From Spirogloea muscicola (lineage: Eukaryota > Streptophyta > Zygnematophyceae > Spirogloeales > Spirogloeaceae), in contig WELB01000029.1 in the NCBI GenBank assembly GCA_009602725.1, positions 952,084 through 981,094 on the forward strand: DNA of 29,011 nt. Reading direction: 5' to 3'. Within the stretch, counting starts at the first letter, position 1. Each line of letters begins with the position of its first letter. The notes under the pieces are model-generated. The model ran no database searches. It was not told the DNA's origin and worked only from the letters and a program-made list of their open reading frames with translations. Of the stretch, positions 2,850-28,520 are shown piece after piece. The translations under genes and the position numbers were made by a program.

Positions 2850-3300
2850 AACGCCTCGATCCCTCCGCCTTTATGTCCCTCCAGCGCTCCCACGCGCTTG
2901 CTTTGCACCGCCGCGCCGATCGCGCCCTTGCAGCAGCCTCTGGCCTTGCGCAGCGGGGTTGCTCTTCCTCCCCTCAGCTCATCGCGCTTCGTAATTGCTT
3001 TGTTTCTCCTTGTGCTTGTCTTTCTTAGCGCTTCCCCTGGCCCCCTTCTCGTACTTTGTTCATTCTTTTTGGGCTGGCTTTTCCAGCCCCTATCCTCGAT
3101 GGGCTTCCCCTTCTTGCTCATCTGACTTCCTACTGCTGACCCGGGGGTTACTAAGAGCGCCCTGTCTGCCTGTTACGATTCATACGTAGCTGCTCTGTTT
3201 CTTGTTGTGCTTGTTTTTCTTAGCGCTTCCCCTGGCCCCCTTCTCATACTTTGTTCCTTCTTTTTTGGGCTGGCTTTTCCAGCCCCTATCCTCAATGGGC
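2850..3300 (+). mobile_element. Degenerate retroelement 3' fragment with duplicated tail
   Basis: Positions about 2865-2996 encode a decayed copy of the window-wide C-terminal peptide (MSLQRSHALALHRRADRALAAASG). A separate LLTRGY-stop remnant sits at about 3128-3151. Two near-identical tails of about 100 bp, each with a GGGCTGGCTTTTCCAGCCC hairpin, lie at about 3000-3105 and 3198-3300. The doubled tail suggests a tandem or nested insertion. The fragment begins about 175 bp upstream of the Mic10-like start codon. Assignment to a non-LTR element is inferred from the related copies. Confidence 0.6.
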
Positions 3301-3565
3301 GAGCCCTTCCATCTTTTGTAGTAATCTGTGGTGTAGTCCTTTTCCCGGCTCCTCTTTCTCTTTTCTTCTTGGACGTTGTCCATTCTTTTTAGGGGTGGCT
3401 TTGCAAGCCCCTCTTCTCTGTGGGCGAGGCCTTCTTCCTGTCTGCCTAGCCTGTGGCTCCGCCATGAACACCTGTATGCATCTGGCTGGGTTTCACAGCC
3501 GCTCTTTTAATATCAGCAGCCGCATTCATTCTTTCTTCGTCCATGTTCACTCTTTCCAGCTGGCC
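3301..3565 (+). mobile_element. Retroelement 3' tail fragment, second tail type
   Basis: This segment has the tail sequence also seen at 14940-15050 (+) and 25960-26060 (-): GTGGTGTAGTCCTTTT, then CCGGCTCCTCTTTCT, then GTCCATTCTTTT and a hairpin (GGGGTGGCTTTGCAAGCCCC). No coding part is attached. It is followed by another tail-like piece with imperfect CTGG/CCAG pairs up to about 3565. Confidence 0.5.
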
Positions 3566-3868
3566 TTCACAAGCAAGCGCGGCCTAACTGGTGGCTGGGA
3601 GAAGTGGCACTCCCAATGGGGGCAAGGGCTGTGAAAGCCAGCCCGAAAATAATTAAAAAAGGTTCAAAGGGGCCAAATGACGGAGGGGCCTAAGAAAAGC
3701 GCTACGCAGCTACGAAGGGGCCTGAAGATGCTATGTCAGAACGGGGGAGGATGGACCACTCAGCAGTTACGAGTGAGGAGCCTCAAATCCGACAAACTAG
3801 CTGCCGGAAAACGATCCCCCTGCTGAAAGCCTGAGGCCGTAGCGAAGAGGGAGAGGCCAGTCCCAGAG
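3566..3868 (-). mobile_element. Retroelement 3' fragment, minus strand
   Basis: Reading the minus strand from about 3845 to 3755 gives a short copy of the C-terminal peptide (ASGFQQGDRFPAASLSDLRL, then LTRNC-stop). Its tail runs to 3571 and contains the AGAGCCACTT-type box (here AGTGCCACTT), the GGGCTGGCTTTCACAGCCC hairpin, and the terminal GCAAGCGCGGCC box. The copy is truncated upstream of the ASGF segment. Confidence 0.6.
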
Positions 3869-4270
3869 GGGAGCAAGCGCGGCCAGATTAACTGGTGGCT
3901 GGGAGAAGAAGTGGCTCTCCCAATGGGGGCAAGGGCTGTGAGAAGCCAGCCCGAAAAGAATTGACAAGGTTCGAAGGGGCCAAAGTACGAGCTAAGCAGC
4001 GACTGTGGGGCCTGAAGAGGCTATGGCAGAACGGGGGAGGATGGACCGCTTAGTAGTTACGAGTGAGGAGCCTCACATCCGACAGACTAGCTGCCGGTAA
4101 ACTATCCCCCTGACGAAAGCCGGAGGCCGCAGCGAGAGCACGGCCAGCACGCAGATGCAAGGCGTGGGCCATGGACCGCTGGAGGGAGACGGACAAGCGC
4201 ATACGATACACCTGAGCCCACGAGCCAGCGGCGTTGAAGTCAGCCGGCTCACCGCGCCTGCGGGACACAG
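3869..4270 (-). mobile_element. Retroelement 3' fragment with intact C-terminal peptide
   Basis: On the minus strand, 4270-4050 encodes RRGEPADFNAAGSWAQ, then YRMRLSVSLQRSMAHALHLR, then AGRALAAASGF and a final LLTRNY-stop. This matches the copy at 27860-28077 (+) almost residue for residue. The tail (4049-3870) carries the hairpin and ends at the GCAAGCGCGGCC box. The upstream end stops abruptly at 4271, where another tail fragment begins, consistent with 5' truncation or nested insertion. Confidence 0.7.
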
Positions 4271-4560
4271 CACGCCTGGGAGAGGCCAGCCCAAAAGAAT
4301 GGACAAGGTCTGAAGGAGTCGGAGTGCTAAGGACTGAGACAGCAGTAAGCGAACTCTCAGTAACCTCAGTCCCAGAGGAATGGACAGGGTCCTGAAGGAG
4401 CCGGAGTGCCAAGGAGTGCTTCACAGCCCTCGCTTCAGTCCCCTCCGTCATTGTGGCCCCTTGGACCCATTCTGTCCATTCCTTCCGGGCTGGCTGTTTC
4501 ACAGCCCTTGCCCCCATTGGGAGAGCCACATCTTCACAGCCGCTGCCGTGCAGTGATCGG
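4271..4560. mobile_element. Two opposed retroelement tail fragments next to CPSF160 start
   Basis: Positions 4271-4400 hold a minus-strand tail of the first type, with GAAGGAGTCGGAGTGCTAAG and then GACTGAGACAGCAG. The same sequence occurs at 13452-13506 and 15154-15214. Positions about 4400-4560 hold a plus-strand tail with GGGCTGGCTGTTTCACAGCC followed by CCCCATTGGGAGAGCCAC. The patch ends about 90 bp before the CPSF160 start codon and so probably overlaps its promoter or 5' untranslated region. Confidence 0.6.
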
Positions 4561-4650
4561 CGCTGCTCCTGCCCCTCCGCCAGCCGCTTCGCCGGCTCTG
4601 CCCTCCGCCGTCGCGGCCCCGCCTCGCTCGCCGCCGCCACGCCCCTGCTC

Positions 4651-7600
4651 ATGAGTTACGCAGGCTTCCGCACCCTGCACGCCCCGACTGGCGTGGATGC
4701 CGCCGCCGCCGCCTTCCTCACCCACACCGCCCGCTCCCCTCCCACCCTCCCGTGAGCCTCGCACCCGCTCCCCGCCCAGCCTCCTCCCAGCAGCTCCTCG
4801 CTGCTCCGCGGCCTCGCGCGGCTTGCTCGCTGACGCTCCTTCCGGCCTGGGGCCGGTGCGGGTGCGCACAGGGAGAGCGGCTCGCCAGGCGCTCTGCCCT
4901 TGCCGGCAGCGGAGAGCTCGCCCCGTGTCCAAGTCATGCCATGGCCGTCTTCGCGCTCCGCTGAAGGGCCGCTCCATGGTAGCCTCCACATGCCAGCCAG
5001 CCGCCCTGTCCAGAAGCGTCTCCCAGTTCTCTCCTACCATTTCCGGGACAGAGCAGCGTCTCATGACCTGCAAAGCTGTGGGGCCAGCTCAGGCTGCCAG
5101 CGGCAGGCTCTTCGAGCTGCATGCACTCTGAGCAGAGTGCGTGCTGCTCGCACTCGCACTCGCACTCGGTCGAGAGTTGCGAGGGAGCAACCAATCAGCC
5201 CCATACAATTGCTGCTGCCTGCTAGGCGGTACTGTTTTGAAGGGAGACGAGGCGGGGCGCAGTCAGGTTCTTGACGGAGCTCAACAGTTCCCTAAGTGCT
5301 GGCGGCGTTGTGTTGCAGTCGACCTGCCGCCAGACCTGGTCGTTGCCAAGGCCAACGTGCTGGAGATCTACAGGCTGTGCATGCAGCCGGGGTTGGGATC
5401 TGGCGCCGGAACCGGCGATAAGGCATTTCTGCAGCTCGTCTGCGAACACAGGTGCCGCGCTCACACTGAGCAGTAAAGAATGTATCAGCCACTGGCGTTG
5501 TCTCGCTGGTCGCCCAGTTGCTGAGCGCCAGGATGGTGCTCCGGTGGCCAGGCTGCAGGAGAACATCGAAGGTTTGGCCGTTTTGGCTGGTCAGGGGGGA
5601 GGCAGAGGGCAGCGGTGCGGCAGGCGGGACGCCCTACTGCTGGCCTTCCGCGAGGCCAAGATCTCTGTACTGGAGTTTGACGATGCGTCCCACGCCCTCC
5701 GCACCATGCAAGCCTCCTGCCCCATTCTTGGCATCTGGCTTTGCATCAGCAGGGCCGCGACTATCCCAACGCCACTCCAGGAAATACCTGCCACTGCCTG
5801 TCCTGCCCAGACTCACGCAGCATCGCGCTCTTGAGCTGCTGACACGCACATCTGCGTGCTGCTGCGCATTGCCTGACAGCTCTTTGCACTACTACGAAGG
5901 TGATGAGTGGCAGAGCCTCAAGCGAGGCCACGAGAGGTTCCCTCGAGGGCCGATCGCTCGCGCAGATCCGTTGGGACGGTGTGCAGCGGTCCTGCTCTTC
6001 CGGTGCCAGCTTGCGCTCTTCAGAGCCGCCAACCCGTCGCTTGGGCTCGGGCTCCTCCCTGGGGAAGAGGAGCCCGTAGGTGGAGGACAGGTGTCCTACA
6101 TTGCGCACCTCCGAGATATGGGGATCCCGCATGTGCGGGACTTTGTCTTCTTGCATGGTGCGAGCCCCTGTCAAGCAGAGCTCCTGCCTGCCAGCATCAG
6201 CTATGACGTTAATCTGATTTATGCCTTCTAGTATGCGCCACGATCACAGGAACTGCCTTGAGTTGCGAGCAGGGTACACAGAGCCGGTGGCGGCGGTCTT
6301 GTGGGAGGCTGAGCCGGCTTGGGCCGGAACCCTCCCGCTCTCCAAGCGCTCCAATGCCTCGCTCTCCGCCCTCAGCCTCAACACCTCCCTTCGCCAGCAC
6401 CCCATCATCTGGTCCTTCTCCGTCAGTCAGGGCTTCCTCCTCGTTCCTCCTGCCGAGCTGCTCAATCGACTACCTGACGAAGTCCGTTGAGATGCACTCC
6501 ATGTCAAGCCCAGGCGCTCAAGAAGCTGCTGTCTTGTGTCTCTGCAGGGGTTGCCCTTTGATGTGTTCAGCGTGACCGCAGTCCCTCATCCAGTCGGCGG
6601 TGTGCTAGTCTTGGGGACCAATTCGGTGCACCACTGCAGTCAAGCCCAACAGGTTTCTGTTGCAGTGAATGACTTTGGAAAAGGTCAGGAAGCTGAGGTG
6701 CCGAGGGCGTCTGTCACCACGGAGTTGGACGGTACGCAGGCAACGTGGCTGGCACCGCACGTCGCACTCCTCTCCACCAAGACTGGGGTTTTCTACCTTC
6801 TCTCCCTCATCTTTGATGGACGGTAAGACCCACTCGTTGGCTCGCAGGACTTTCAGTGCAGCGCTAGCAAGCCTTGGCCAGCGATAGGGAGGGACGGTGT
6901 GGTATGCTCAGCCTGTTTGACATGGAGTTGACACTGCGACAGGGCTGTCGTGCGTCTGGAACTATCCGAGAGCCGAGCGGCCTCACTACCTTCATGCCTT
7001 GTCACCTTGGACGGGTCCTATTTCTTCCTGGGCAGCCGCCTTGGCGACAGCCTCCTTATTCAATATGCCCCGGCCCCTCACTTACCTCTCGGCGACCAGC
7101 ATCTGAGTGATGGGAACAAAACACTGCCGGACTTGGATGTGGTATATCGCCTGGTCTCACCATGGTGCTCATGCTTGACTGTGTGGTGCGGCCCAAAGTC
7201 ATGCCACCATGTCAGCCTGATGTGGCTACGTCTTTGCGCACCTTGCAGGGTGGCCTCCTCTCACCTGCCAGCAAGAAGCGCCGTGTGTTACTGGAGGGCC
7301 AGGCGTCCATCAGTGCTGAGGAGGATCTCCTTCTCTACTCGTCATCTCCTTCTGCCGAGGGCCCAGCACCGTCCCATCTCCACCTGGACAGAAGTGGGAA
7401 GTTTGACTTTGCAGTGGTCGACTCGCTTGTCAATATCGCTCCCCTGCGTGCCTTGGCGCATGGTGTGCGGTCTGCTACCGATGCGAGTGATGGGGGAGGG
7501 GAGGGGGCTTTGCAGGACAGCCATGAGCTTGTGAGCTGCTTCACCTGGCCCCTGGCACTGCACCGTGCAACTTGGCCTTCTGTACAGTGGCATGTACGGA

Positions 7601-10600
7601 CTTCTGGGTCGTTCTGTGACCTGAGCAAGTTGGCACCGTTCGTCTGCAGCTGGCCTGTTCAGGCCATGGGAAGAATGGCAGTATATCTGTCCTCCACCGC
7701 TTCATTCAGCCTGAGGTCATCTCGGAGGTAGGTCTCTCGTCCTGCCGCTTCTGATCTCAAGCAACCGCCTTGAAGAGTGACGGCCCTCCTCATGAGCTGC
7801 AGGCTTAGTTCTAGTCTGCCACAAAACAGAGGAATCAAGCCTTGGTCCTGTGATCCTGAGGACTTGGCGCATCCCACGTGTAACCACCCGCAGGCTGCTG
7901 TTCCCAGTTGTCAAGCCATCTGGACGGTGTATCACGAGGCAGATGACCGCCCGCCCCTTCTCGAAGAAGGGCCCACTGATGCACACCACGCATACCTCAT
8001 CATGAGCTTAGAGGACAGAACGATTGTGCTGGAGACCAGGGAGGACTTAGCTGAGGTCACAGATGCAGTGGGGTATTTCAGCGAAGGCCCAACGGTCGCA
8101 GTAGGGAACTTCTTTGGCAGGAGAATGGTACTCCAGGTCTTTCGCAATGGTGTGCGGCTCCTCGATGGACCAAAGCTGGTCCAGGAGGTTGCTGTGTCAG
8201 GCGTGATGCGGGCTACAGTGCAGGACCCTCATGCTGTCCTCCAATTGGCGGATGGGAGGCTCGAGCTCGTCACTGCATGTGAGAGCTTGTGGATGCCAGG
8301 ATGGAGCACAATCTGCATGCTGAGAACATTCACTGCCTGCGCCTACTGCAGATTACGAGTCATGCAGGTTCTAGTCTGAGCAAGTTTGCTTGCACCTTTG
8401 CAGGTCTTCCAGCACATGTCGTAACCCTGTCTGACATTGACATCGGGCCTGAGAGGCCGACATGCTTCGCCCTTCACTGTGATCCAACGGAAACTGCATG
8501 GCTGGCAGCTGCTTGCAGTGCTAGTGGATCGTCAGCAGGTGGAGGCAAGGGTGAGCCTAAGGACACGGTGCATCACGGTCACTGCATACTATGTACGAGG
8601 GATGGGGCAATGGAGATCTTTGGTCTCCCTGGCTTCAAGTCTGTCTTCAGGGAGGCAAAGCTAGGGGCTGGACCAAGGGTACTCAAGGACAGTAGTGGTA
8701 AAGTACGGAGATCAGAGTCACAGGAAGTGGAGGACGTTCCTTTTGCTCAAGAAGTGTGCATGCCTGCTTGGAGAGGAGGCCATTCAAGGCAGCCATTCCT
8801 CCTTGCCCTCCTCAGCGATGGCCGATTGCTCTGTTACTGTGCGTATACTTATGACAGTCTCAAAGCTGAGGGGAATCGGAGCCGCTTGCGCTTTGTACGC
8901 CTGGCTATAGATCAGCTCCCCTGTGTAGCCCCTGAGCCCAAATCGAGACCAGCAGGATGCGTAGCAGAGGCTAGCCAGAGATTGGTGGCTTTTGACAACA
9001 TTGGGGGCATGCCAGGAGCCGTCATGATGGGGGCCAGAGTGCTTTGGCTCATGGCGGTCAGAGGCAGGTTGCGAGCACACCATCAGAAAGCGGATGCAGT
9101 CACTGTGGCCTTTGCCTCCTTGCACAACGTCCACTGTGCGCATGGCTTTGTCACTGTGAACTCCCAGGTGCGCTGTGTTGAAAACCAGGGGCACGCGACT
9201 GTCAAGGAGGTATTGAGTGCTTTGTTTGGCTCAAGCAGTTGTGACATTAGAGCATTCTGAGCTTTGCTGCATTGCTGGCTCGCCTTGCACAGGGGCAGCT
9301 CAGAATTAGCAACCTACCCCACCTGCTCCATTACGACAGCGAGTGGCCAGTGCTGAAGGTAACAAGGCCAAGCTTAGCTCCGCTTGGAGCTAGCTCTTGA
9401 AAGCCAGGCCGATCAAGGATGCAAGCACTGCTAATGTGAGGAGCTCACTTGGATCTCTTAGCTTGGACCGTTAGTCTGCTTTCAAGACTGATTGCTTGTC
9501 CAAGTCTGCTGCCCATTTGTTGCAGATTCCGCTCAGAGTCACCGCGCACGACATTGCCTTCCATGCAGACTCCAATGCCTATGTCCTGGTCACATCAACC
9601 CCTGTATGCTCTTCTTCAGAATGTCACCAGTCACTGTGGCTCATTGTCAGTGGACAAGGCAACCTAGATATAGACAAGGCAGCAGCATATAGCGAGGCTC
9701 CAAGACCTTGTATGAACCTGGACATGTGTGTTGTGACAATGCCCCTGATTGGGTCATCAAAATTGCACATGCCATGCAGGTTCCTTGTGTGCCACTGCAT
9801 CGGAGTAACATGATCACTGGGTGGCTGGTAACAGGGCAAGAGGCTGCTTGCAGAGGTAGTTGAGCAAGGAGAGGAAGGGGATGTTGACGAGGCCGACGAA
9901 GGTCAGATGGGAAAGAGCAAGGGCCAACTGGTGCCTGTGAAGCTATTTGAGGTGTGCGCTCTTAGTGCCAAGCGCGACTTTACCATCGAGCAGAATCAGC
10001 TCCTAAAGGTTGGGGAGCATGTGACGACTCTTCGCGTGCTATTCATCCAGGTGAGAGGCCTTGGCCTCTGCATAGAACTCTGCATCAATCCTTGACAAAT
10101 GGGTTCGGCAGTGCTGCATGACCAGACGCGCATGCTACAGGCTGAGGCTGGTGCCTAAGCGCAGAATCTGTCTGGTGGAGGCATCGAGGCGTTGGTGGTT
10201 GTGGGAACCATGTGCGTGCAAGGGGAGGATGTGCCAAGCAAAGGGCGCATACTCCTCTACACACTGAAGGAGTCTTCAGAAGGCGAGAAAAACAAGTTGC
10301 AGGTAGGCTTGCACACTCTCGTATAGCGGATGGGGACGGGGAGATAACACGAAGAAATCACTCTTCATCAGTGGTGTCTTCACAACATGACAGTCGCACC
10401 TGAGCTGTTTTGCCCTGCGGCCTGGTGGGCGCTGCGCAGCTGCTGGAGGTTTTGGAGAAGGAGATGAAGGGGGGGGTGACAGCTGTGGCCTCCCTTCAAG
10501 GGGCCATCTTGTTGGCCGTTGGTCCTAAGCTTGTGCTGCACTCTTGGGATGGCAAGGACATCACCGCTACCGCCTTCTACGATGCTCCACTATATGTCGT

Positions 10601-12208
10601 CAATCTGACAACGGTGCAGACAAGACTCCTCCAGCTTGTGAATTCATCACAGCTCTGGGCAGAGACCATGTGCTAACGAATTTCTGGTCCAGCTGACTTC
10701 CTCTTTGTCAATTATTTGCAGGTCAAGAATTACGTGCTACTAGGAGATATCCACAAAAGCATCTCATTTCTGCAGTGGAAGGAGGATGGCGCACAGCTTC
10801 TGCTTCTTGCCAAAGATTTCTCGCCTTTGGATTGCTACGCTTCTGAATTTCTCATTGATGGACCCCAGCTCAGCCTTGTGGTCGCAGACCGCAATAAGAA
10901 TCTCAAGGTGGGGACTGGATGGGATTGGCACTGACATTCGTTCTTAAAGGAATGGAGCATTGTTGTGCAGTTGTAATTTACATTTATTCACTTGTTCATC
11001 AATCTCTTAAGTGACTTGAGTGCCTTGGAGAAGGCGCAACCCATACCAATGTTTGTTATCACAAAGGAGAAGGTTGTGCTGTCCCTCCTACACCATATAC
11101 ACAGTCTCGGGTCATGAAGTCGCAGAGGACATTAATATCACCCATAGAGATGACCCTCGGTAGCCTGGCTATCATGACAAGGACTGCCTCTGACGTCTGT
11201 GTTGCACTTACTTTCCGGTCCAGATTCTGGTTTATGCTCCGAAGAGCCTACAAAGTTGGAAAGGACAAAAGCTGCTGACTCGTGCGGAATTCCATGTTGG
11301 TGCTCACACCACGCGCTTCCTGCGGATACAATGCCCGTCGACCTCTCAAAGCACAACCCATGCTGCCCGATATGCACTACTTTTTGGTACCTTGGACGGG
11401 GGAGTTGCTGTGCTTGTATGTGCCAGCCAGCTTGTTAACCTCACCTGCCCCTTGCAGAACGTTGATAGTCTGTGTCTCACCAGAAGATTGCTGTCTGCAC
11501 GGGCGGCATTACCGCCTCCTTGTGCCCCAAAAATATCCTCATCTCTGTGCTACATCCTTCTGTTCCTGATTCTCAAGTAGCTGGGCAGCTGCTTCGTATT
11601 GCATGTGATGCTTGTTTTAGAGGTTACTGTGTGAAGGCTCAGGCCTTCACTTGGACTGCTGCAGGCGCCCATGGACGAGCTGGCATTCAGGCGCCTCCAA
11701 GCTCTCCAGAGAGTGTTGGTGGATGCTGTGCCCCACACGGCAGGCCTCAATCCTCAGGCCTTCAGGGAGTACCGCACAGGTGGCGAAGCGCATTCGCCAG
11801 GACCAGACAACATTGTGGACTGTGACCTGCTATTCCAGTCAGTACAGTTGCCCTTCCTACACTATGATATGCAAGAAAACAACTTGTTTCTCCAGGACAA
11901 AGCAAGCAACAAGCAGGCCACACGCCCTGCTATGTTTGGCAGTGATTGCAGTGCACGGGTCCCAAGCAAGCCACAGAGAGGCGCAGCTCAAGTCTTGTGT
12001 CAAGCTAACGCGCCGCGCACATGCATGAATCCAACAATGGCATGGTAAAGCCTTGCGTTGTGACAATTGCCTCCTGCTTGTGCCTGTACACAGGTATGAC
12101 ATGCTGGACTTTCAGGACCAGCTTAGACTAGCCACACAAATAGGTAGCAGCCGCTTGCAGATAACGGCCAGCCTGAGAGAGTTCGCCGCAAGCACAAGCT
12201 TCTTGTGA
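4651..12208 (+). CDS. CPSF160: Cleavage and polyadenylation specificity factor subunit 1 (CPSF160)
   Basis: This is the large scaffold of the nuclear CPSF complex. With WDR33/FY-type and CPSF30 subunits it helps recognise pre-mRNA 3'-end signals. Exons: 4651-4751, 4872-4924 (tentative), 5319-5451, 5552-5707, 5880-6157, 6273-6421, 6548-6822, 6943-7138, 7249-7530, 7650-7727, 7894-8278, 8404-9167, 9293-9358, 9526-9603, 9835-10050, 10165-10302, 10440-10613, 10722-10907, 11224-11415, 11665-11837, 12094-12208. Lengths sum to 1396 codons with the stop, close to plant CPSF160 (about 1440). Landmarks are MSYAGFRTLHAPTG at the start, KANVLEIYRL, the SLHYYEGDEW...LKRG block, YFFLGSRLGDSLL, SGHGKNG, the CPSF_A region (about residues 1030-1360, with VGTMCVQGEDV, LLGDIHKSI and FLIDG), and VDAVPHTAGLNP near the end. 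Intron 5708-5879 needs a GC donor. The start codon is well supported by family match. Confidence 0.96.
5148..5168 (+). repeat. CTCGCA hexamer microsatellite
   Basis: About three and a half tandem copies of a CTCGCA/GCACTC hexamer lie inside CPSF160 intron 2 (4925-5318 in the tentative model). The rest of this 394-base intron holds nothing else recognised. Confidence 0.7.
5708..5879 (+). other. Probable GC-AG intron in CPSF160
   Basis: The upstream exon must stop right after HALRT plus two bases and resume at SLHYYEGDEW to keep the family alignment and phase. No GT exists near that point. The fitting donor is GCAAGC at 5708-5713, and the acceptor is GACAG ending at 5879. The joined codon is ATC. 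GC-AG introns are a known minor class, so this is plausible but needs transcript evidence. Confidence 0.6.
10908..11223 (+). other. Long CPSF160 intron 18
   Basis: This 316-base interval lies between NLK and ILVYAPK. The donor is GTGGGG and the acceptor GGTCCAG. It is more AT-rich than the flanking exons, and I see no gene, RNA or repeat in it. Confidence 0.65.
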
Positions 12209-12555
12209 TCACGACAGTGTGAGGTGCACGAGCCCACAAAAGAAAACCCTCCCAAGCAAGCAGGCCAGGTGCCAAATACAGCAGTCCTGGCCGTGCACAG
12301 GCGGCAAGCTCGTCTCTCTCAAGTCTCAAACTTTGGCTGGAGTCTAAGCTCATGGACGGGCAAGCGGAACACGTGCCAACCTCGTTGGCACCACGGCAGG
12401 GGCGTCAGGTGGCTGCGACAGTGTTCCGCATCACAGGGGGAGGAGGGGAGGTGGGAGCTAAATAAGGAGGGCCAGGGAGGCAGCACGTGGTGGGTTGGCC
12501 ACGGGCTCCTGTGTGACTGCACTTGGAGGCTCGCGAAAGAGGCCTGGTCGCAGGG
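12209..12555. other. Convergent 3' intergenic region, CPSF160 and eIF1A
   Basis: Two genes end tail-to-tail 347 bases apart. No coding potential and no fragments of the repeat family were found. It presumably holds both 3' untranslated regions. I did not find a clear chlorophyte TGTAA polyadenylation signal for either gene. Confidence 0.6.
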
Positions 12556-12993
12556 TCAGATCCTGTCGATGTCCTCGTCCTCGAACTCGATGTAGTCGTC
12601 CTCGCCATCGCCCTCCTCGTCGTCCATGCCGCCGGCGATGCCCTCGTTGAGGCGCACGTTGTCGGGCAGCTCCCCATACGCCTTGAGCAGGCGGGCCTCG
12701 TCGGGCTGGAACTTGAGGATGACGTCGGCCTTGTCGTCCTGGTAGTCGCGCAGGCCGACGAGGATGATGTCGCCGCTGGCAATCCACACCTTCTTGTGCA
12801 TCTTGCCGCGGATGTGGCAGAGGCGCTTGGTGCCGTCGATGCAGAGCGCTTCGCAGCGGCCGTTGCCCAGCATGCGCAGCACCTGCGCGTACTCCTGCCC
12901 GTCCTCCTTGAACACCAGCTCCCGCTTCTCGTCCTCCGCCTCGTTCTTCCCGCGCTTCCGGTTCTTGCCTCCCTTGCCCTTGTTCTTCGGCAT
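12556..12993 (-). CDS. EIF1A: Translation initiation factor eIF1A
   Basis: eIF1A binds the 40S A site with eIF1 and promotes scanning and start-codon choice. The protein is 145 residues, matching the usual length (about 144). It has the basic N-terminal tail ([18 protein letters not shown]), then the S1-like OB fold (about 25-110) with [41 protein letters not shown] and [19 protein letters not shown]. The acidic C-terminal tail ends EDEDIDRI. It is intronless, unlike the intron-rich neighbours. The reading frame stays open upstream to about 13263, but the conserved MPKNKG start fixes the ATG at 12993-12991. The upstream 5' region contains an ambiguous base at 13084. Confidence 0.97.
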
Positions 12994-13309
12994 GCTGCTG
13001 GCGCGGGCGCCGCCCTCGCCGGGGGTGGAGGGCTGCGCGGCGGGAGGCGGGGGGGCCTGGGGCCGCGACGGCAGAGGAGGCGGNGGCGGGGGTGGTGGCG
13101 GGCTAGCAGGGCTGGAGGCGGCGGGCGTGGGAGTGGGGAAGGAGCGGGAGGCGACGGCCGGCCAGTCGAGACGGCGCGACCGACGTGGGAGAAAGAAACG
13201 AGAGGCGCGCGGCGCGCAGGAAATGAGAAAGAAGGTGGCCCGAACACTGTCTGTCAGGAACACACCCGCGGGGACAGGAAGGAACAGCTATATCAAGTTA
13301 CGGCAAGGG
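12994..13309. promoter_or_regulatory. GC-rich 5' region of eIF1A
   Basis: This GC-rich interval directly precedes the eIF1A start and must contain its 5' untranslated region and core promoter. No TATA-like or other named element can be assigned by eye. Repeat fragments begin just beyond, from about 13310. Confidence 0.35.
13084..13084. other. Ambiguous base (N) upstream of eIF1A
   Basis: A single N sits in a very G-rich run 91 bases upstream of the eIF1A start codon. It may be an uncertain call or a collapsed gap, so local spacing should not be trusted. Confidence 0.9.
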
Positions 13310-13605
13310 CTGTGAGGACCCACGAGGGAGCACATACTAGCCTACACACATGCCCGCCTAATTGGAAGTGCTAGCCCATAGAGAAGAAAAGCAAGCGCGG
13401 CCAGATTGACTGGTGGCTGGGGGAGGCCAGCCCAAAAGAATGGACAAGGTCTGAAGGAGTCGGAGTGCTAAGGACTGAGACAGCAGTAAGCGAACTCTCA
13501 GTAACCTCTCGTCAGTAGATGCAAATCTGAATAGCTAGCAGGCGGAAAGACGTCGCCCTGACAGAAGCCGGAGGCCGCCGCCAGAGCGCAGAAGAGGGGC
13601 TGGCA
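13310..13605 (-). mobile_element. Retroelement 3' fragment with C-terminal peptide
   Basis: On the minus strand, about 13600-13513 encodes ALAAASGFCQGDVFPPASYS, then DLHLLTRGY-stop. The tail of the first type runs through AGTCCTTAGCACTCCGACTC (reverse strand) and TTTTGGGCTGGCC to the terminal GCAAGCGCGGCC box at 13391. A partial AAGGGCTGTGAGGACCC piece at 13303-13325 is probably another tail remnant. Confidence 0.65.
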
Positions 13606-14060
13606 AAGCCAGCCCAAAAAGAATGGACAATGTCCAAAGCCAAAGAAGTCTGATTCGGGGGCCTGAACAGACAAGTGAGCTCTTGGAAAAGGGGCCGAGG
13701 GCTGTGAAAGCCAGCCCGATTTTCCGATTTGACAAACCTTATACACTAAGCCGGAGCACCACCTCGTAGGAAAGACTCTTCCGCAGAGAAGGGGCACTCC
13801 CAATGGGGGCAAGGGCTGTGAAAAGCCTGCCCGAAAAAGAATTGACAAAGGTCCGAAGGGGCCAAATGATGGAGGGGCCTAAAAAGCGCTAAGCAGCTAC
13901 GAAGGGGCCTGAAGATAAATGAATGAACAAACACATTCTTTTTCTGGCCAGAATGAACAAACTTCGAAGGGGCTAGAGAGAAGTGGCTCTCCCAATGGGG
14001 GCAAGGGCTGTGAAACGCCAGCCCGAAAAGAAGTGAAAGGGGCCAGAGAAGCGTTAAGTA
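13590..14060 (-). mobile_element. Stacked retroelement tail fragments
   Basis: At least three tail units lie in succession on the minus strand, with hairpins at about 13600-13620 (GGGCTGGCAAAGCCAGCCC), 13690-13712, 13805-13838 and 14003-14030. The units at 13787-13870 and 13975-14045 share a CTCCCAATGGGGGCAAGGGC box and GAAGGGGCCA spacing. The unit at 13618-13645 has GAATGGACAATGTCCAAAGC. No coding part is attached except the piece to the left. Confidence 0.6.
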
Positions 14061-14725
14061 CACAGTGACTCAAGTGGCCACTGGGTGCTCACTGGGTGCC
14101 AGTGGGTGCTCAATATCCCCTGTTGAGCAGCCCCAGGTCAGACAAACAAATCCCCGGGTAGCAGGTCCCCTGTCTACAGCCAGAGCTGCAGCCAAAGCGC
14201 AACTGGCATGCAGATGCACTGCATGTGCCAGTGCCCACTGCAGCGGTACTGACAGGCGCATGCGATACACCTGGGCAAGAGAGCCTGCCGCGTTGATGTC
14301 TGCCTGCTCCCATTGATAACGTCAGGACACAGCGCACTAGCCGGTGCAGGAGCTCGAGCCACCGAGCCGGCCGAACGCCCCGTGGACGTCAATGGCAAGG
14401 GGGAAGAACTCGTCCTCTGTCAAAGGATCAGCATCATTTGCCTCCTTGCCTCGAGCGGCACTGGCGACTGCATGTTCTGCCTTAGAGGCAGATACATCGG
14501 GGTTGGCCCGATCGAACGCTTCAGTCGTTACCACATCCAGGAACCAGCGAGGGTCACCAGCCAGTGGGGTAGCCAGCAGGTCGACTTCCCGGGCGTACAC
14601 GCCGTTCGCCCTTCTGCTGCAGAGAGAAACAACAACAGCACAGGAAAGGCACGCGGTGCGCATGCAATGAGAGGGTGGCCGTCTCAAGTCGATACATTGC
14701 AGGAGGTCTGAGAGTGCATCCACGC
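14061..14725 (-). pseudogene. Degenerate retroelement copy with nuclease-like region
   Basis: The minus strand from about 14610 to 14345 reads ARE, VDLLATPLAG, then LDVVTTEAFDRANPD, KEANDADPLTEDE and FFPLAIDVHGAFGRL. After stops and frame breaks around 14340-14300, 14300-14070 gives a decayed C-terminal peptide (DINAAGSLAQVYRMRLSV). The order of an Asp-hydrophobic strand, then Lys, then PLAxDVHGA resembles the PD-(D/E)xK-like region that follows reverse transcriptase in some non-LTR elements. That family assignment is inference from pattern memory. In-frame stops show the copy is dead. Confidence 0.5.
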
Positions 14726-15090
14726 CGCCGGTCCGCTCGCACAAGTCTTCCGCATGCGCCTGGCCGTATCGCTTCAACGCTCCCTTGCCCACGCCGTCCA
14801 CACGCGAGCAGGCCGTGCTATGGCCGCCGCCTCTGGGTCTCGGCGGAGTGCCTCTTTCCCTGCAGCGAGCTACTCAGACCTGATGTTGCTCACTCGTGGG
14901 TACTGAGCTTCCCTTTTCATCGTTTCTGTGTTCTGCAGTGTTTTGTAGTGTAGTCCTTTTTCCGGCTCCTCTTTCTTTGGCTTCGGACATTGTCCATTCT
15001 TTTTTGGGCTGGCTTTTGCCAGCCCCTCTTCGCTATTGGCGTGCACTCCTTCGGACCTTGTCCCTTCTTCCTGTGTCCCTTCGCCTCCAA
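14726..15090 (+). mobile_element. Retroelement 3' fragment, recent copy
   Basis: Positions 14742-14906 encode VFRMRLAVSLQRSLAHAVHT, then RAGRAMAAASG and SFPAASYSDLMLLTRGY-stop. By eye this DNA differs at only about three positions from the reverse strand of 26142-26315, so the two copies are recent. The tail is of the second type (TTTGTAGTGTAGTCC, then the TTTTGGGCTGGCTTTTGCCAG hairpin at about 15000-15027). Confidence 0.7.
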
Positions 15091-15510
15091 AAGAAGCAAG
15101 CGCGGCCAGATTAACTGGTGGCTGGGAGAGGCCAGCCCAAAAGAATGGACAAGGTCTGAAGGAGTCGGAGTGCTAAGGACTGAGACAGCAGTAAGCGAAC
15201 TCTCAGTAACCTCTCGTCAGTAGATGCAAGTCTGAGTAGCTAGCAGGCAGAAAGACGTCGCCCTGACTCTACTCTAAGTTGTGACCACTCTTCTTGGTGG
15301 GGCTGGCCTGTCGTAGCCATCGGCCCCCTAGTGTTGCCGGGTGAGGACTTGCCATCCGCGGCGGCGCAAGCCTTGCCTAGGGCTCAAGCAAGAGAGTGAG
15401 CTCTTCCAAGGGGGCGGGGGCTGTGGAATGCCAGCCCTGTGAAGCTTGTTCATACTTTCTAGGCTGGCTTTTCCCAGCCCATGCCCCCCATCGGAATAGC
15501 CACTCCTTTT
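15091..15510. mobile_element. Retroelement tail fragments close to GDI start
   Basis: Positions 15096-15265 are a minus-strand first-type tail starting at the GCAAGCGCGGCC box, with the peptide remnant QGDVFLPASYSDLHLLTRGY-stop on the reverse strand. Positions 15391-15443 (AGTGAGCTCTTCC, then GGGGCTGTGGAATGCCAGCC) repeat the unit at 13674-13712. Positions 15450-15510 are a plus-strand hairpin piece (GGCTGGCTTTTCCCAGCCC). The interval 15266-15390 is not recognised. The patch ends about 150 bases before the GDI start codon. Confidence 0.6.
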
Positions 15511-15638
15511 TCCCAGCCCCCCACCCCGTTGGAAGAGCTCACCTCCCGGCCAACCCGGCGCCGTTGCCCCAACCGCCCCCCGGCCCCAGGCCCTGCGTTG
15601 GTGTTGGTGTGCCTCGCCCCTCGCTGCGCCGCCGCCGC

Positions 15639-15639: not shown

Positions 15640-15656
15640 CTCGTGGCCGTCCCGCC

Positions 15657-23158: not shown

Positions 23159-24314
23159 GTTCGCTGTCACTGTGGCAAGCCAATGCCGCAGGCAATATGA
23201 AGAGGTCTGGGAGTAAAACTTATCAGCGTTCGGCAGGACCAGACTCGAGCCAAGCATGTGCCCGAGCTCTCTATGTGCTTTCCAGCAGCAATGGCCCCTG
23301 CTTTCATTACTGCCCCTCTGAGGCTGCCCTCTTGGTGCACCAATGTCTTGACATTCATATGCAATTGTGAGCTCCACCCTCACTCTGCTCCAGTGTCAAT
23401 CTTATTGCCACAATTCTCTCCTACTGGTCCAAGAGGCAGTGCGTCCATCAGACATGCGGCTGTGATCACCACTCCTTAGGCACGAAGGATGCAGATAAGC
23501 TGGAATGCAGATCAGCTCCAGAGGCACAGTAGCAAGACGGGAGACTGCTTCCACGAGTTGACACTCTGTTCAAACATTCTGTGACATAAAAGGTCACCAA
23601 AGCCGCAGCTTGAACAGCGCCATGCTCTTCAATCTGCAATATGGAAGGCCTCGCAATGTGACCACAAGTTGTATACGAGCAACATCAAAGCGGCAGGGGG
23701 AAGGTTCGTAATGTTGGCAGATATGGCAAGCACAAGCACACCCCTTGAGAGGACAGCGTGTCTCAACAACAGCATGGACCAAGAGGTTAGAGGTCAGCGT
23801 GGGTTCCGAACAGTACCTTGCAACATTGCTTGACGTGTCTGGTGCTAGAACCTGCCAGAGCGATTCTCACCCAGCTCTACTGCCGGTTGATGCACAGAAA
23901 AGGTGAGGAGCAGGGCGCCAACCAACCAGGATACATTTGCTGTGGCAGTAATTGCTTGTTACGAAGCTGCAAAGTCCCAGTAGGAGGAAAACCCTTCCCA
24001 CAGTCTGACCAAGACCTGCTGGCCTGTGTCGAAGGCGCTGTCTCAGCCAAGTTCAAAGTTGCAAATTCCAGGCACAGGGCCAGTTAACACCACGTCCCTT
24101 CATACCATATGTGGACCACTTGAGGCTGCATGGTGGCTCAGCCGACTTCTACACCGCGTGGGGTTCAGTGTTGCTCATGTGAGACTATGTGTGTACAGCC
24201 GAGCATTCTGCACAAGGAATCTCGCGTGCAAAGCAGCCTGCGCGGGCACCCACAAAGACTTTGTCTGCTCTTCTGCCCTCTGGCAACAGACTGCCACTTG
24301 CCCATGCCTCAAGC
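23159..24314. other. Convergent region, cyclin T and glycine-rich RNA-binding gene
   Basis: About 1.16 kb lies between two stop codons facing each other. Short open frames exist on both strands but none shows a domain, codon bias or splice-consistent extension. No fragments of the repeat family were found. It most likely contains two 3' untranslated regions. Confidence 0.5.
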
Positions 24315-25349
24315 TCAGTAACGGTCGCTGTCGTGGTCGCCTCCACTACGAGAGCCGCCACCACTGCTGGGGCGATCATAGGGGGTGGGGCGCTCGCTTC
24401 TGTAACTCCCACCTCCTCCCCCTCCGTAGCTGCCACCACCGTAACGGTCACCCCCGCCACCGCCACCGTTGTGGCGAGAGGCTCCACCGCCCCCGTAACG
24501 ATCGCTGCCTCCGCTGCCACTGCCACCACCATAGCGGTCGCCGCTGCTGCTGTAGCTGCTGCGTGAGCTGTAGCGGTCGCCTCCGCCACCGCCACTCCCG
24601 CCATACCGGTCGCCGCCACCTCCGCCACCATAGCGATCGCTGCCACCTCCGTAGCGATCGCCCCCACCACCATAAGAGCCACTGCTGTAGCGACCACCTC
24701 CGCCCCCGCTATAGCGACTGCCGCCCCCGCCACCTCCAGCAGAGGGGCACTCGCGAGCCCAGTGACCCGATTCGCCGCACTTGAAGCACTCCCCGCCACC
24801 GCCGCCGCCACGACCACCACCCCCCCCACCGCCGCCTCCATAGCCCCCGCCACCTCCTCCGCCACCATAACCACCACCGCCTCCGCCGCTCTTGGGCTGC
24901 GCCTCGTTCACTGTGATGATGCGCCCGTCCAGCTCTTTCCCGTTCATGGCCTCGATCGCGTCATCCATGCCACCCTTGTCCCCGAACGTCACGAAGCCAA
25001 AGCCCCGCGAGCGGCCCGTCTCCCGGTCTTGGATCACCTGACGGCCGACCACAGCCAGCCTCGACCGGATGTGACCACCGGGAATCGCAGCCAGCAAGCG
25101 ATGCTGCGGACCAGAGGAGCGGCTCAGCGGGACCCTCACCTTGGCATCGGTCACACCGTAAGGTTGGAACGCATCCTCCAGGGCACGGTCGTCGGTGGCC
25201 CAGGCGAGCCCTCCGACAAAGCACCGAAACTCGCCGTCGCCACCGCGACCGCCGCCTCCGCTGCCTCCGCCGCCTCCCCCACCGTCGTTGCCGCTGCCGT
25301 AATAGCCGCCGCCACCACCACCGGCGCCGCCTTCGTCACTGGCATAATA

Positions 25350-25382
<33 letters not shown>

Positions 25383-25448
25383 GTCGCCACCGCCACCGCC
25401 GCTGCCGCTCTTGACGACAGCGTCGGGCTCGTCGCCGTTGTCACCCAT
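24315..25448 (-). CDS. Glycine-rich RNA-binding protein, RRM plus CCHC zinc knuckle
   Basis: This is a predicted nuclear or cytoplasmic RNA-binding protein of the plant RZ-1/GRP type, which act in RNA processing and cold response. Exon 1 (25448-25140) encodes a Gly-rich N-terminus with two YY(A/G)S blocks and RRM strand 1 (CFVGGLAW, RNP2). Exon 2 (25037-24315) continues with VIQDRETGRSRGFGFVTF (RNP1), AMNGKELDGRIITVNEAQPK, a Gly-rich linker, a CCHC knuckle CFKCGESGHWARECP, and a long GGGDRYGG/RYSS repeat tail ending DHDSDRY. Total is 343 residues. The N-terminal Gly-rich extension before the RRM is unusual; GRPs normally begin at the RRM. The start MGDNGDEPD is chosen as the first ATG adjoining the domain; an upstream in-frame ATG at 25544 is less likely. 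The intron is 102 nt and stop-free. Confidence 0.93.
25038..25139 (-). other. In-frame 102-nt intron inside the RRM
   Basis: The donor GTGAGG follows VTDAK and the acceptor GTCAG precedes VIQDRETG. Removal gives a perfect RRM. The intron length is a multiple of three and has no stop in frame, so retention would insert 34 residues between two halves of strand 2 of the RRM. Confidence 0.85.
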
Positions 25449-25499
25449 GGTGAGGGCGGGCGGCGGGGCGGCGGAGGGGGAGGGCGGCGGGCGGGCGGG

Positions 25500-25720
25500 T
25501 TCTACCCGCGCTCCTGACCGGGTTTCGAGAAGTGAGCCCTCCAATCGGGTGGGCGCTGTGAATGAAGAAGTGGCTCACCCAACGGGGGCAAGGAAGATTT
25601 CGTGTATTTGAAACAAACGAAGGCCAAATGGCCAAGTACAAAGGCACGCACATCTTAAGACCTACATAACCTACAGTAGATTGACCCGCTCAGAAACCAC
25701 GGGTCAAAACAAGGGCTGTG
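25500..25720 (-). mobile_element. Retroelement 3' tail with LTRGF remnant
   Basis: On the minus strand, 25712-25695 reads LTRGF-stop, followed by a tail (25692-25604, with TAGGTTATGTAGGTCTTAAG). This tail is closely repeated in inverse orientation at 26740-26826. It then passes into a CCCGTTGGGTGAGCCACTTC box at 25592-25573 (reverse strand). It abuts the GRP gene's 5' flank, starting about 50-60 bases from its ATG. Confidence 0.6.
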
Positions 25721-26070
25721 AGAGCGGAGCGCCGGCGGAGCGCCTCTTTCCCTGCAGCGAGCTACTCAGACCTGATGTTGCTCACTCGTACTGAGCTTTC
25801 CTCTGCATCGTTTCTGTGTTCTGTGAGAAGAAGTGGCTCTCCCAATGGGGCCAAGGGCTGTGAGAAGCCAGCCCGAAAAGAATTGACAAGGTTCGAAGGG
25901 GCCACCCAGAAAGAACCAACAAGGTCCACAGGGCCGAGAGGGAGTCAGAGAAAAGGAAAAGCGCGCCCATAGAAAAGAGGGGCTGGACCAAGCCAGCCCA
26001 AAAAAGAATGGACAATGTCTAAAGCCAAAGCAAGAGGAGCCGGAGAAAGGACTACACTACAACATACTGC
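25721..26070. mobile_element. Nested retroelement fragments
   Basis: Positions 25725-25822 (+) encode SASFPAASYSDLMLLTR with the final GY lost by a short deletion. At 25823 the sequence switches to a minus-strand tail (GAAGTGGCTCTCCCAATGGG and a hairpin at 25856-25878). A second minus-strand tail of the second type follows at 25960-26060 (hairpin GGGCTGGACCAAGCCAGCCC). The sharp switches indicate nested or joined insertions. Confidence 0.6.
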
Positions 26071-26460
26071 AGAAAGCAAGCGCGGCCAGATTAACTGGTG
26101 GCTGGGAGAACACAGAAACGATGCAGAGGAAAGCTCAGTACCCACGAGTGAGCAACATCAGGTCTGAGTAGCTCGCTGCAGGGAAAGAGGCGCTCCGCCG
26201 AGACCCAGAGGCGGCGGCCATAGCACGGCCTGCGCGCGTATGGACGGCGTGGGCAAGGGAGCGTTGAAGCGATACGGCCAGGCGCATGCGGAAGACTTGT
26301 GCGAGCGACCCGGCGGCGTTGAAGCCGGGCATCGCCCCTGGCAGACCCGGCCGCCGGTCAATGGCCTGGCGAGCAAGCCGCTGAATGAGATCCAGCCAAA
26401 GGCTCGCCCATTGAGGATAGGGGCTGGAAAAGCCAGCCCAAAAACGAAGGAACAAAGTAA
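26071..26460 (-). mobile_element. Retroelement 3' fragment, recent copy
   Basis: On the minus strand, 26330-26135 encodes FNAAGSLAQVFRMRLAVSLQ, then RSLAHAVHTRAGRAMAAASG and LMLLTRGY-stop. It is nearly identical to 14742-14906. The GCAAGCGCGGCC terminal box at 26076 lies immediately downstream, and the intervening tail is almost entirely missing. Upstream, at about 26395-26460, lies another minus-strand tail piece with GAGGATAGGGGCTGGAAAAG. Confidence 0.65.
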
Positions 26461-26910
26461 GAGAAGGGGGCCAGGGGAGGCAGTCCGCTTGCTGCTGTCT
26501 CAGTCCTTAGCACTCCGGCTCCTTCTCCGGCTCCTCCCGGCTGAGATGGGCTTGCCAGCTGCATATCTGTCATTCCTGCGGCGACGAGCTTCGGCCTGTT
26601 TGCAGCGTGCTCAGGCTAATGCTTTGCACCAGAAAGCTGGGCGAGCTCTAGTTGGTGGGAGAAGGGCTTCGTATCTGCCCTCTAGTATTCAGGCATCGGT
26701 TAGCGAGATTTATATTTGGACCCGTGGTTACTGAGGGGGTCAATCTACTTTAGGTTATGTAGGTCTTAAGATGTGCTTCCCTTTGTACTTGGCCATTGGG
26801 CCTTCGTTTGTATCGAATACACGAAATTTTTCTTCAGACCTCCATTCCTTTGGGCTGGCCTCTCCCAGCCACCAGTTAATCTGGCCGCGCTTGCGCCGAA
26901 AGGGGGTCGA
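26461..26910 (+). mobile_element. Divergent retroelement 3' fragment
   Basis: Positions 26495-26535 are a first-type tail piece (CTGTCTCAGTCCTTAGCACT). Positions 26566-26734 encode a divergent C-terminal peptide (SACLQRAQANALHQKAGRAL, ending IYIWTRGY-stop). The tail at 26740-26826 is the inverted partner of 25604-25692. The stretch then joins GGGCTGGCCTCTCCCAGCC and the terminal box on the plus strand (26853-26893). Confidence 0.6.
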
Positions 26911-27240
26911 GAGGATGCTGCATGTGCCCCACGCAGCCAGCGCCTCACACGGGACGAGCTACAGCCAGTGTACTGGCTTGCTTTGGCCTCCCTCTCACTT
27001 CATGCGCACCGCGCGTCCTGGCGCGCCCCCTCCCGCTCGCGCCGGCGCCCTCGAGATCTGCCCTAAGCCCTGAACCCTCATCGCAACCAAGACGGTCGCT
27101 GACGGTCGCTATTCATCCGCAAATGCGAGGGAAAGGCGCGCGGTACGCATGAAGTGAAAGGGAGGCCAACCGACAGATCACACAGAAGGCCAAACCTATC
27201 AGAGCCGGCCCACCACACCGCTACCTTCAGTCCTCCGTCC
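26911..27240. mobile_element. Short internal retroelement fragments, both strands
   Basis: Positions about 26965-27030 (+) read LALASLSLHAHRASWRAP. Positions about 27190-27100 (-) contain a related sequence in a shifted frame. The same LSLHAHR phrase occurs at about 14690-14640 (-), just upstream of the nuclease-like region, so these are probably internal pieces of the same element. Similarity is by eye and short. Confidence 0.4.
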
Positions 27241-27480
27241 GCTCTAGTCTCGTGCATATAGCGGTGTGGTTCTGGATCTTGTCCATTACCATTGGGCTGG
27301 CCTTTCACAGCCCTTGCCCCCATTGGGAGAGCCACTTCTTCTTTCACAGCCACTGCCTTAATTTGGAAGACCTGTGGTTTGCTCCCCCTCTTGACGTACA
27401 TCTGTCAATGTGCTTGCCTTTGTGCTTGGCCACGCAGGCCCTTTATCTCTAAGTACACACTCCTTATTCTTGACACTACG
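27241..27480 (+). mobile_element. Retroelement 3' tail fragment
   Basis: This piece includes TTGTCCATTACCATTGGGCT, the GGGCTGGCCTTTCACAGCCC hairpin and CCCCATTGGGAGAGCCACTT. A CTTTGTGCTTGGCCACGCAG piece follows, related to the 26770-26800 and 25650-25620 tails. No coding part is attached on its left. Confidence 0.55.
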
Positions 27481-27499
27481 AGCCAACACCAAGACTTCA

Positions 27500-28280
27500 A
27501 GATGGAAGGACCCGCCGCCAAGGGCAGCAGAGCGAGCAGCCCGGCTTCAATGCCGTCAAGTCGCTTGCTCGGCTGTACAGCTTGCGCCTTGCCTCCCTGT
27601 GCACCTGGTTTGCGTCCACGCCGGGCGGCGGCCCGCGCGTCATCGCCGATGTGGTCACCACCGATAAGGTGGATCGCGCCAATCCGGGGCTCTTCTGCCT
27701 CGAGGGCTGGCCATGCAGCGGCGAACGCCGCTCGCTGCAAGGCCGCAAAGTGTGCAGACCACCCGGTTTGGGACGATTTCGTACCCTTGGCCGTGGATGT
27801 GCACGGGGCTCTCGGGTCCCAGTGGCTCGACCTGCTAGCCAGGCTTGCGAGGCGCGCTGTGACCCGCAGGCGAGGTGAGCCGGCTGACTTCAACGCCGCT
27901 GGCTCGTGGGCCCAGGTCTTTCGCATGCGTCTGTCAATCTCCCTCCAGCGGTCCGTGGCCAACGCCTTGCATCTGCGTGCTGGCCGTGCTCTCGCTGCAG
28001 CCTCTGGCTTTCATCAAGGGGATTGTTTTCTGGCAGCTAGTCTGTTGGATTTGAGGATCCTCACTGGTAGCTACTGAGTGGTCCATCCTACACCCGTTCT
28101 GACATAGCGCTTTAGGCCCCTCCGTCGTTTGGCCCCTTCGAACCTTTGTCAATTCTTTTCGGGGCTGGCTTTTCATAGCCAAGGAACCATATTGCTCATA
28201 AAATATATGTTATACAGCACCTTACCATATTGATTTCATTGCCCCCATTGGGGGAGCCACTTCTCTCTCTCCCTGCAGCT
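27500..28280 (+). pseudogene. Longest retroelement copy: nuclease-like region and C-terminus, frameshifted
   Basis: Positions about 27560-27690 read SLRLASLCTWFASTPGGGPR, then VIADVVTTDKVDRANPG. A frame change near 27690-27715 is needed to continue into HAAANAARCKAAKCADHP, then WDDFVPLAVDVHGALGSQWL. After this it stays open through FNAAGSWAQVFRMRLSISLQ and RAGRALAAASGFHQGD to LLDLRILTGSY-stop at 28077. The tail to 28280 carries the hairpin and CCCCATTGGGGGAGCCACTT, split by an AT-rich insertion at 28181-28240. It parallels the 14345-14610 (-) copy, which fixes the domain order. It is inactive as it stands. Assignment to a non-LTR retrotransposon protein is inference. Confidence 0.6.
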
Positions 28281-28520
28281 TTCCTTGGCATTTGCCGTCC
28301 ACTTGCGGGCCCCGCCTCGGCCGCTGCCTCCGGGTTCCTGTAGGCTGCTGCCTCTAGTCATCCGGATCTGCACTTGCTGACTAGCGGGTTTTGAGCTCCC
28401 TCTCGCAGACGGCACAGAGAGTAGTTTCTTGCTTTAATGAGCCTGCCAGCCCGTTCAGGCCTTGTACATTCCGTTTGGGCTGACCTCTCACAGCCACTGC
28501 CGTACATTGGAAAATCTATT
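28281..28520 (+). mobile_element. Telomere-proximal retroelement 3' fragment
   Basis: Positions about 28285-28393 give a badly decayed C-terminal peptide (SLAFAVHLRAP, then SHPDLHLLTSGF-stop) with an internal stop. Its tail contains TTGTACATTCCGTTTGGGCT and GACCTCTCACAGCCACTGCC, equivalent to the hairpin box of other copies. It is the last recognised copy before the telomere. Confidence 0.5.

Follow-up and report, generated by a model that had tools for sequence, protein, structure and literature searches.

Nested, 5'-truncated copies of a LINE family, very probably of the restriction-like endonuclease type and recently active, at the end of a Spirogloea muscicola contig

A 29,011-nucleotide stretch of the Spirogloea muscicola assembly GCA_009602725.1 (contig WELB01000029.1, positions 952,084 to 981,094; hereafter the window) carries many scattered copies of one C-terminal peptide, which raises the question of what kind of element left them there and how. 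The window forms the final 29 kb of its contig (C29; 981,094 bases) in a genome of 153 Mb and 471 contigs, and its comparison with itself reveals four clusters of related repeats on both strands, at ~2,990-4,550, 13,390-15,520, 25,555-27,015 and 27,140-28,500. Our searches identify the peptide as the end of a single-open reading frame (ORF) retrotransposon without long terminal repeats (non-LTR). The window copies are very probably 5'-truncated insertions of a multi-subfamily, recently active long interspersed nuclear element (LINE) with a restriction-like endonuclease (RLE), in a host that is probably a green alga.

An earlier note, made from the letters of the window alone, had listed the peptide at 13 places and counted a dozen copies. 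The repeat is real: a search of the window with C-terminal peptides of the family (tblastn, E<=0.05) matched 12 of the 13 places. Two of these rows, starting at 26561 and 27772, are circular because both peptides served as queries, and they are supported by other evidence; 27772-28074 has 149 other genome matches at 83-87% identity (among 150 scored of 17,318 candidates), and the peptide at 26561 reaches 36.6-38.9 bits with four other subfamilies, the best of 200 shuffles scoring 26.6. The thirteenth place (25712-25695, minus strand) gave no tblastn match but has support at the DNA level, as it sits at the edge of a 120-base repeat (25590-25709) that is 91% identical to 26715-26834 inverted. 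One match absent from the earlier list was found at 27510-27593 (plus strand, E 8e-7). A shuffled window produced a single tblastn match, at E 0.031, and rows near E 0.05 (e.g. 7141-7284, E 0.043) are therefore at chance level. A DNA profile of the 3' end, built from 164 ends that lie outside both the window and an arbitrary genome sample, detected 23 ends in the window on both strands and none in Markov-shuffled sequence; a few of the training ends may be on the wrong strand because the 3'-end hairpin is near-palindromic. The presence of a family thus stands, but a dozen is too low a count in view of these 23 ends.

What lies upstream of the peptide was established by searching the genome for full-length copies, which were found. 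Long frames of 1,350, 1,350, 1,410, 1,433, 1,521 and 1,558 codons precede it in six of the eight loci fetched, the remaining two (L020 and L021) having frames of 833 and 691 codons, and all eight end in the motif noted earlier or a variant of it. Counted from the likely start codon, the ORF spans ~1,300-1,440 aa in subfamilies B, C and D, and a GC-rich leader of ~90 bases precedes that codon in subfamilies B and C. The order within the ORF is N-terminal zinc-finger-like motifs (C-x2-C-x12-H motifs are visible in the long ORFs), reverse transcriptase (RT), CCHC-like knuckle, RLE motifs and C-terminal peptide. The RT domain anticipated by the earlier note is encoded, since RVT_1 exceeded the Pfam cut-off in all three full ORFs scanned (E 8.4e-16, 2.4e-13 and 1.2e-14); no apurinic/apyrimidinic endonuclease (APE), RNase H or GIY-YIG family was detected in these three ORFs at E<=1. 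Among solved structures the best matches are R2 proteins, at E 7e-7 with one sequence and 7e-11 with a six-sequence profile, and the only other profile match at E<=0.01 is Cdt1 (0.0018), in a Pro-rich part and probably by chance.

Passages of PMC5678591 describe the RLE motifs of LINEs as RxxDL, D, KX2KY (a variant of PD-(D/E)XK) and GXW, with a preceding knuckle CX2-3CX7-8HX4C. The residues R..DL, D-V-V-T-T-D and K-x2-K are invariant in the five C-termini that we aligned, the last continuing as K-x2-K-Y in three and K-x2-K-H in two, and the family has G-x2-W where that paper gives GXW. The assignment of a putative RLE holds at the level of motifs, because no profile match to the RLE of R2 was obtained among solved structures.

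The element DNA itself indicates how copies arose. We drew forty loci from the 150 scored matches (frames of 104-200 aa, in table order, two previously used being omitted). Measured from the 3' end, their 5' boundaries range between 456 and more than 1,454 bases (the query fixes the lower bound, and one copy leaves the fetched stretch), whereas the 3' ends of 30 of the 40 deviate from the reference end by no more than 9 bases; the other ten are interrupted within the 3' untranslated region (UTR), one of them by a run of N. The variable starts and retained 3' tail reported in the earlier note are thus seen in these loci too, the common end in the most-sampled subfamily being CCACTTC(TTC)n, a variable TTC-rich tail. 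Full-length copies share their 5' end within ~10 bases at 6/6 places in subfamily C and 9/11 in subfamily B, counts that are not fully independent as the L014/L015 and C66/C453 pairs have upstream DNA in common. Peptide searches of the genome gave 17,318 first-look candidates, of which 150 were scored and all were significant, while a 367-aa query from further upstream gave 6,220, of which 111 were scored; these counts are rough, and the surplus of 3' over upstream parts is of the kind that truncation predicts. A sample of 16 arbitrary stretches, placed at round coordinates and totalling 40,000 bases (10,054 N), held 14 3' ends, all in four of the stretches, and the family is therefore both abundant and clustered. 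Copies that are nearly identical exist, full-length ones included: 40 scored places (of 2,363 first-look candidates) were 100% identical, 2 over 451 bases and 38 over 117, with two further short rows at 93% and 87%, and loci L016 and L017 have 4.3 kb in common at 99.7%. Judged by this identity, the family was active recently.

Insertion sites within the window add direct evidence. One 3' UTR copy contains an empty site, GTG-TTCT-GCAG (TTCT at 14,931-14,934, plus strand), of which the same 3' UTR elsewhere has a filled version, GTG-TTCT-[32-base 3'-end fragment, 26,075-26,106]-TTCT-GCAG (minus strand), with the TTCT duplicated; a third copy (plus strand) breaks at the identical TTCT, at 25,822, and adjoins an inverted 3' end. 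Outside the window, locus L055 has a 165-base copy inside a subfamily-A 3' UTR, at CCCC|TTTGTAG, with a 15-base duplication containing two mismatches. In 9 of the 29 loci whose 5' junction was clear, the longest word common to both flanks had at least 8 bases, against ~3% of re-paired controls, and in six of these nine (L027, L033, L035, L041, L042 and L053) the word ends no more than 2 bases from the 5' junction. Of the 19 breaks on the 3' side that fall within positions 1-100 of the subfamily-A 3' UTR, 13 are at positions 45-62 (p 1.9e-6 for a region picked post hoc); the other 54 of 73 such breaks, beyond position 100, were dropped since other subfamilies share only the hairpin there. Copies are therefore nested in one another, and particular 3'-UTR sites have been reused. 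TTTAGG-like words at two insertions had suggested a telomere-repeat target, which we rejected as the flanks, by eye, are pyrimidine-rich and contain no telomere repeat.

The scattered 5' starts, the common tail, the target duplications found at some loci, and the empty and filled site together support target-primed reverse transcription (TPRT) with 5' truncation, as the earlier note had proposed; the full-length copies scanned encode an RT, and no single 5' boundary is common to all copies. We infer the enzymatic activity, the position of the nick and priming at the tail. The RLE would nick pyrimidine-rich sites, e.g. TTCT or CTTT, and the freed 3' end would act as primer, with reverse transcription of the RNA beginning at its TTC-rich end. 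This synthesis would usually stop early, leaving most copies with the last tens to hundreds of bases, and some inserts would come to be flanked by a short duplication of the target. As TTCT/CTTT-type sites are present in each 3' UTR and tail, new copies could land in old ones and so build up nests.

Several observations weigh against this interpretation. No common flank word of at least 8 bases was present in 20 of the 29 loci, two of the 11 subfamily-B places lack the expected 5' end, and three of 13 full-length places lack the tail pattern searched for. In the protein, N-terminal C2H2 matches in Pfam occur in one of three ORFs and fall below the cut-offs; the C-C-H-C cluster is rightly placed, but its spacing (C-x1-C-x12-H-x3-C) differs from that of the published knuckle; and a profile of the C-terminal RLE region matched no R2 chain among solved structures even at E 10. 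Folding of the 3'-UTR RNA is at most weakly better than that of shuffles (z +0.6 to -2.4, six sequences). A hairpin resembling GGGCTGGC...GCCAGCCC does recur in the 3' ends, and the pattern used to list these ends itself required the stem. A strong 3'-UTR RNA structure was accordingly rejected, as fold energies show no clear advantage over those of shuffles and the stem was demanded by the listing pattern.

Two other origins for the copies have to be weighed. Dualen (RandI) elements carry both an APE endonuclease and an RLE, and a LINE of this type would explain the RLE-like C-terminus in a host that is probably a green alga. Such LINEs are reported from Chlamydomonas and its relatives in passages of PMC8226300. 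We nevertheless regard this origin as improbable, given that none of the three full ORFs has an APE domain at E<=1 and that subfamily B and C copies begin ~90 bases before the likely start codon, which leaves little space for one. Still less probable, to the point of being hardly credible, is that unequal recombination or segmental duplication, instead of retrotransposition, dispersed the copies as a satellite or as a gene family. The copies are indeed clustered, and a compound unit is common to one pair of loci (L014/L015) and an extended flank to another (C66/C453), as such a process might produce, but it fits poorly with a common 3' tail and scattered 5' starts in 40 loci, with target duplications and with an RT-encoding parent element, and the empty and filled site in the window already contradicts it.

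A further proposal is an addition to truncated RLE-type insertion, namely that the nests stem from targeting of the family's own 3' UTRs as a safe landing place and not from regional crowding. Insertions recur at identical 3'-UTR sites, and element DNA makes up the flank immediately 3' of the insertion at 19 of 31 loci, as compared with 39 of 368 arbitrary 80-base windows (Fisher p 2.8e-10), although 32 of these 39 background windows come from just two stretches. Moreover, element DNA still fills 13 of 29 windows placed 150 bases further out, so that regional crowding accounts for much of the excess. We consider self-targeting possible, with the balance of probability somewhat against it.

How, then, does the RLE-type family relate to described elements? 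It resembles R2 (structures 9nl2, 9nl3 and 9dou) in its single ORF, a weakly aligned N-terminal zinc finger, the best RT match, and a C-terminal knuckle-like cluster with putative RLE motifs. R2 inserts into 28S rRNA genes, whereas the flanks of this family are diverse, and neither rRNA nor U2 matches were found at Rfam gathering scores in the window and 29 loci (the single Rfam match being one tRNA, at 1521-1592 of L020, away from the examined element). The family further differs from R2 in its Pro-rich N-terminal region, in a C-terminal region that the profile leaves unmatched and in a conserved C-terminal tail of ~85-90 aa beyond the last RLE-like motif. Utopia, NeSL and HERO elements, as described in passages of PMC4640811, encode a single protein that begins with one to three zinc fingers, followed by RT, a further zinc finger and RLE, a domain order that the one protein of our family appears to share. 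According to the same passages, Utopia targets U2 snRNA genes, which again contrasts with the absence of U2 matches here; target duplications are rare in crocodilian Utopia; and HERO includes many non-specific families, some of them microsatellite-targeted. Neither of the words alga and Chlor appears in the main text of that paper.

Among LINEs of green algae, passages of PMC8226300 and PMC11005252 name L1/Zepp, RTE-X and Dualen, and describe Zepp and Zepp-like L1 elements as abundant, clustered and located at centromeres. The present family is like Zepp in its abundance and clustering, and like Dualen, known from green algae, in being a LINE with a putative RLE. It differs from both in the APE domain: L1 elements carry an APE-type endonuclease, Dualen has one beside its RLE, and none was found in the three family ORFs. 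We found no account of an RLE-only algal LINE family in the open-access literature among the matches listed, Repbase lying outside the scope of the search. The kind of element, very probably an RLE-type LINE, is a known one, and the family itself would be new. This kind of element, with a build like that of R2, NeSL and Utopia, together with the nesting and approximately ten more 3' ends, is what we add to the earlier note.

Some copies have a compound structure. A unit of 5,451 bases, 99.98% identical, occurs between different flanks in loci L014 (170-5623; contig C20) and L015 (C338); its first 947 bases repeat its 3' end in inverted orientation, both of its ends resemble inverted terminal repeats, and it is present in 2 of the 40 scored places (2,363 candidates). 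Just outside the L015 unit an imperfect inverted repeat is visible by eye on both sides. The inverted 3' ends of L014 and L015 prompted us to consider double-ended TPRT, in which head-to-head dimers form in one event; it was dropped as a general rule because L053 and L059 are simple nesting, with the outer copy resuming beyond the inner. The head-to-head look of L041 is also simple nesting, judged by eye from its flanks, and L040, L046 and L056 look head-to-head as well. The full-length copies L085 (C66) and L089 (C453) have at least 252 bases of 5' flank in common and different 3' flanks, a pattern to be expected after 5' transduction or partial duplication. Six places that tie for the genome's highest RVT_1 score (139.9 bits; frames of 1,237 aa in five and 1,172 aa in one), including C33:908349-908831, probably belong to another retroelement family.

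The window copies can be placed individually. In the first cluster, the plus strand carries a truncated copy with C-terminal peptide and 3' end at 2831-3104 (tblastn 2831-2992, E 0.002; 3' end 3043-3104) and 3'-end fragments at 3185-3323 (a 90% repeat of 2990-3113; nhmmer 3237-3323, E 8.5e-19), 3367-3438 (nhmmer E 2e-9) and 4455-4538 (nhmmer E 2.7e-15). On the minus strand are truncated copies at 3594-3846, from the last 27 aa to the 3' tail (tblastn 3766-3846, 1.6e-10; 3' end 3675-3594), and at 3903-4277, with the last 75 aa, stop and 3' UTR (tblastn 4053-4277, 5.6e-45; 3' end 3982-3903, E 2e-22), and a 3'-end fragment of another subfamily at 4276-4367 (99-100% identical to 13417-13508 and 15122-15213; nhmmer 4320-4276).

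The second cluster opens on the minus strand with a truncated copy at 13375-13587 that retains the last 29 aa, stop and 3' UTR (tblastn 13501-13587, 3.6e-14; 97% identical to 15094-15267; 3'-end profile), followed by 3'-end fragments at 13591-13639 (nhmmer 7e-11), 13688-13719 (short; nhmmer 1.7e-6) and 13780-13864 (nhmmer 5.8e-20). An old, longer copy at 13975-14537 (minus) preserves the RLE end, C-terminus and 3' UTR with in-frame stops (tblastn 14205-14414, 1.2e-17; DNA repeat to 14537; 3' end 14048-13975). The truncated copy bearing the empty TTCT site in its 3' UTR lies at 14718-15047 (plus; tblastn 14718-14903, 5e-30; 3' end 14981-15047; alignment), beside one at 15080-15265 (minus) with the last 20 aa, stop and 3' UTR (tblastn 15206-15265, 3.2e-8; 3' end 15166-15080), and 3'-end fragments occupy 15385-15437 (minus; nhmmer 2.3e-7) and 15434-15510 (plus; nhmmer 8.2e-12).

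In the third cluster, the 91% inverted repeat of 26715-26834 at 25590-25709 (minus) is the 3' part of a distant subfamily copy. A truncated copy at 25703-25822 (plus; tblastn 25703-25786, 6e-7; alignment) is cut short at the TTCT site of its 3' UTR, where it adjoins the 3'-end copy at 25823-25906 (minus; nhmmer 8.5e-23; alignment). The copy with the 32-base insert extends over 25951-26410 (minus) and has the last 91 aa, stop and 3' UTR (tblastn 26138-26410, 1.3e-47; 3' end 26024-25951; alignment); a 3'-end fragment lies at 26398-26467 (minus; nhmmer 3.3e-15). On the plus strand, the distant subfamily copy at 26561-26834 keeps the last 57 aa and the 3' UTR (tblastn 26561-26731, with the bit scores and repeat given above), and a 3'-end fragment is found at 26841-26890 (nhmmer 2.6e-7). 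The fourth cluster is on the plus strand, with a 3'-end fragment at 27269-27342 (nhmmer 2.8e-18), the fragment at 27510-27593, which is internal and derives from directly upstream of the C-terminal core part, a truncated copy at 27648-28181 with RLE end, C-terminus (101 aa open), stop and partial 3' UTR (the 149 genome matches; DNA repeat; nhmmer 28130-28181), and a decayed truncated copy at 28264-28529 (tblastn 28264-28302 and 28353-28391, E 0.003; 3' end 28444-28529).

Ordinary genes lie between the clusters, encoding eIF-1A (12559-13287, minus) and a glycine-rich protein with an RNA-recognition motif and zinc knuckle (24318-25574, minus); ARAGORN found no tRNA in the window. The window, and contig C29 with it, end at 28938-29011 in imperfect TTTAGGG/TTTAGGGG repeats, and this terminus is therefore probably a chromosome end. 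The DNA is GC-rich. Light-harvesting proteins (Pfam PF00504) are among the products of the genome, and the translations of two of them resemble LHCII of the green lineage; on these grounds a green alga is the likely host. The N letters of the arbitrary sample (L062-L077) fall nearly all in four stretches that have no N-free 80-base window, and long runs of N also lie beside element copies, making up most of L008 and L009 and about half or more than half of L010-L012.

More tentatively, the family may represent an undescribed lineage of green-algal RLE-only LINEs that uses TTCT/CTTT sites, prefers its own earlier 3' UTRs and forms gene-sparing nests, of which the compound ones on C20 and C338 may move as one; we think this wider picture rather unlikely to hold as a whole. 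A family that is both RLE-only and abundant, and whose full-length copies are near-identical, would broaden the known range of an old class of elements, and it provides natural empty and filled sites with which to study target choice. Finally, element-like DNA in 39 of 368 sampled 80-base windows means that the family shapes not only this genome but also its assembly.

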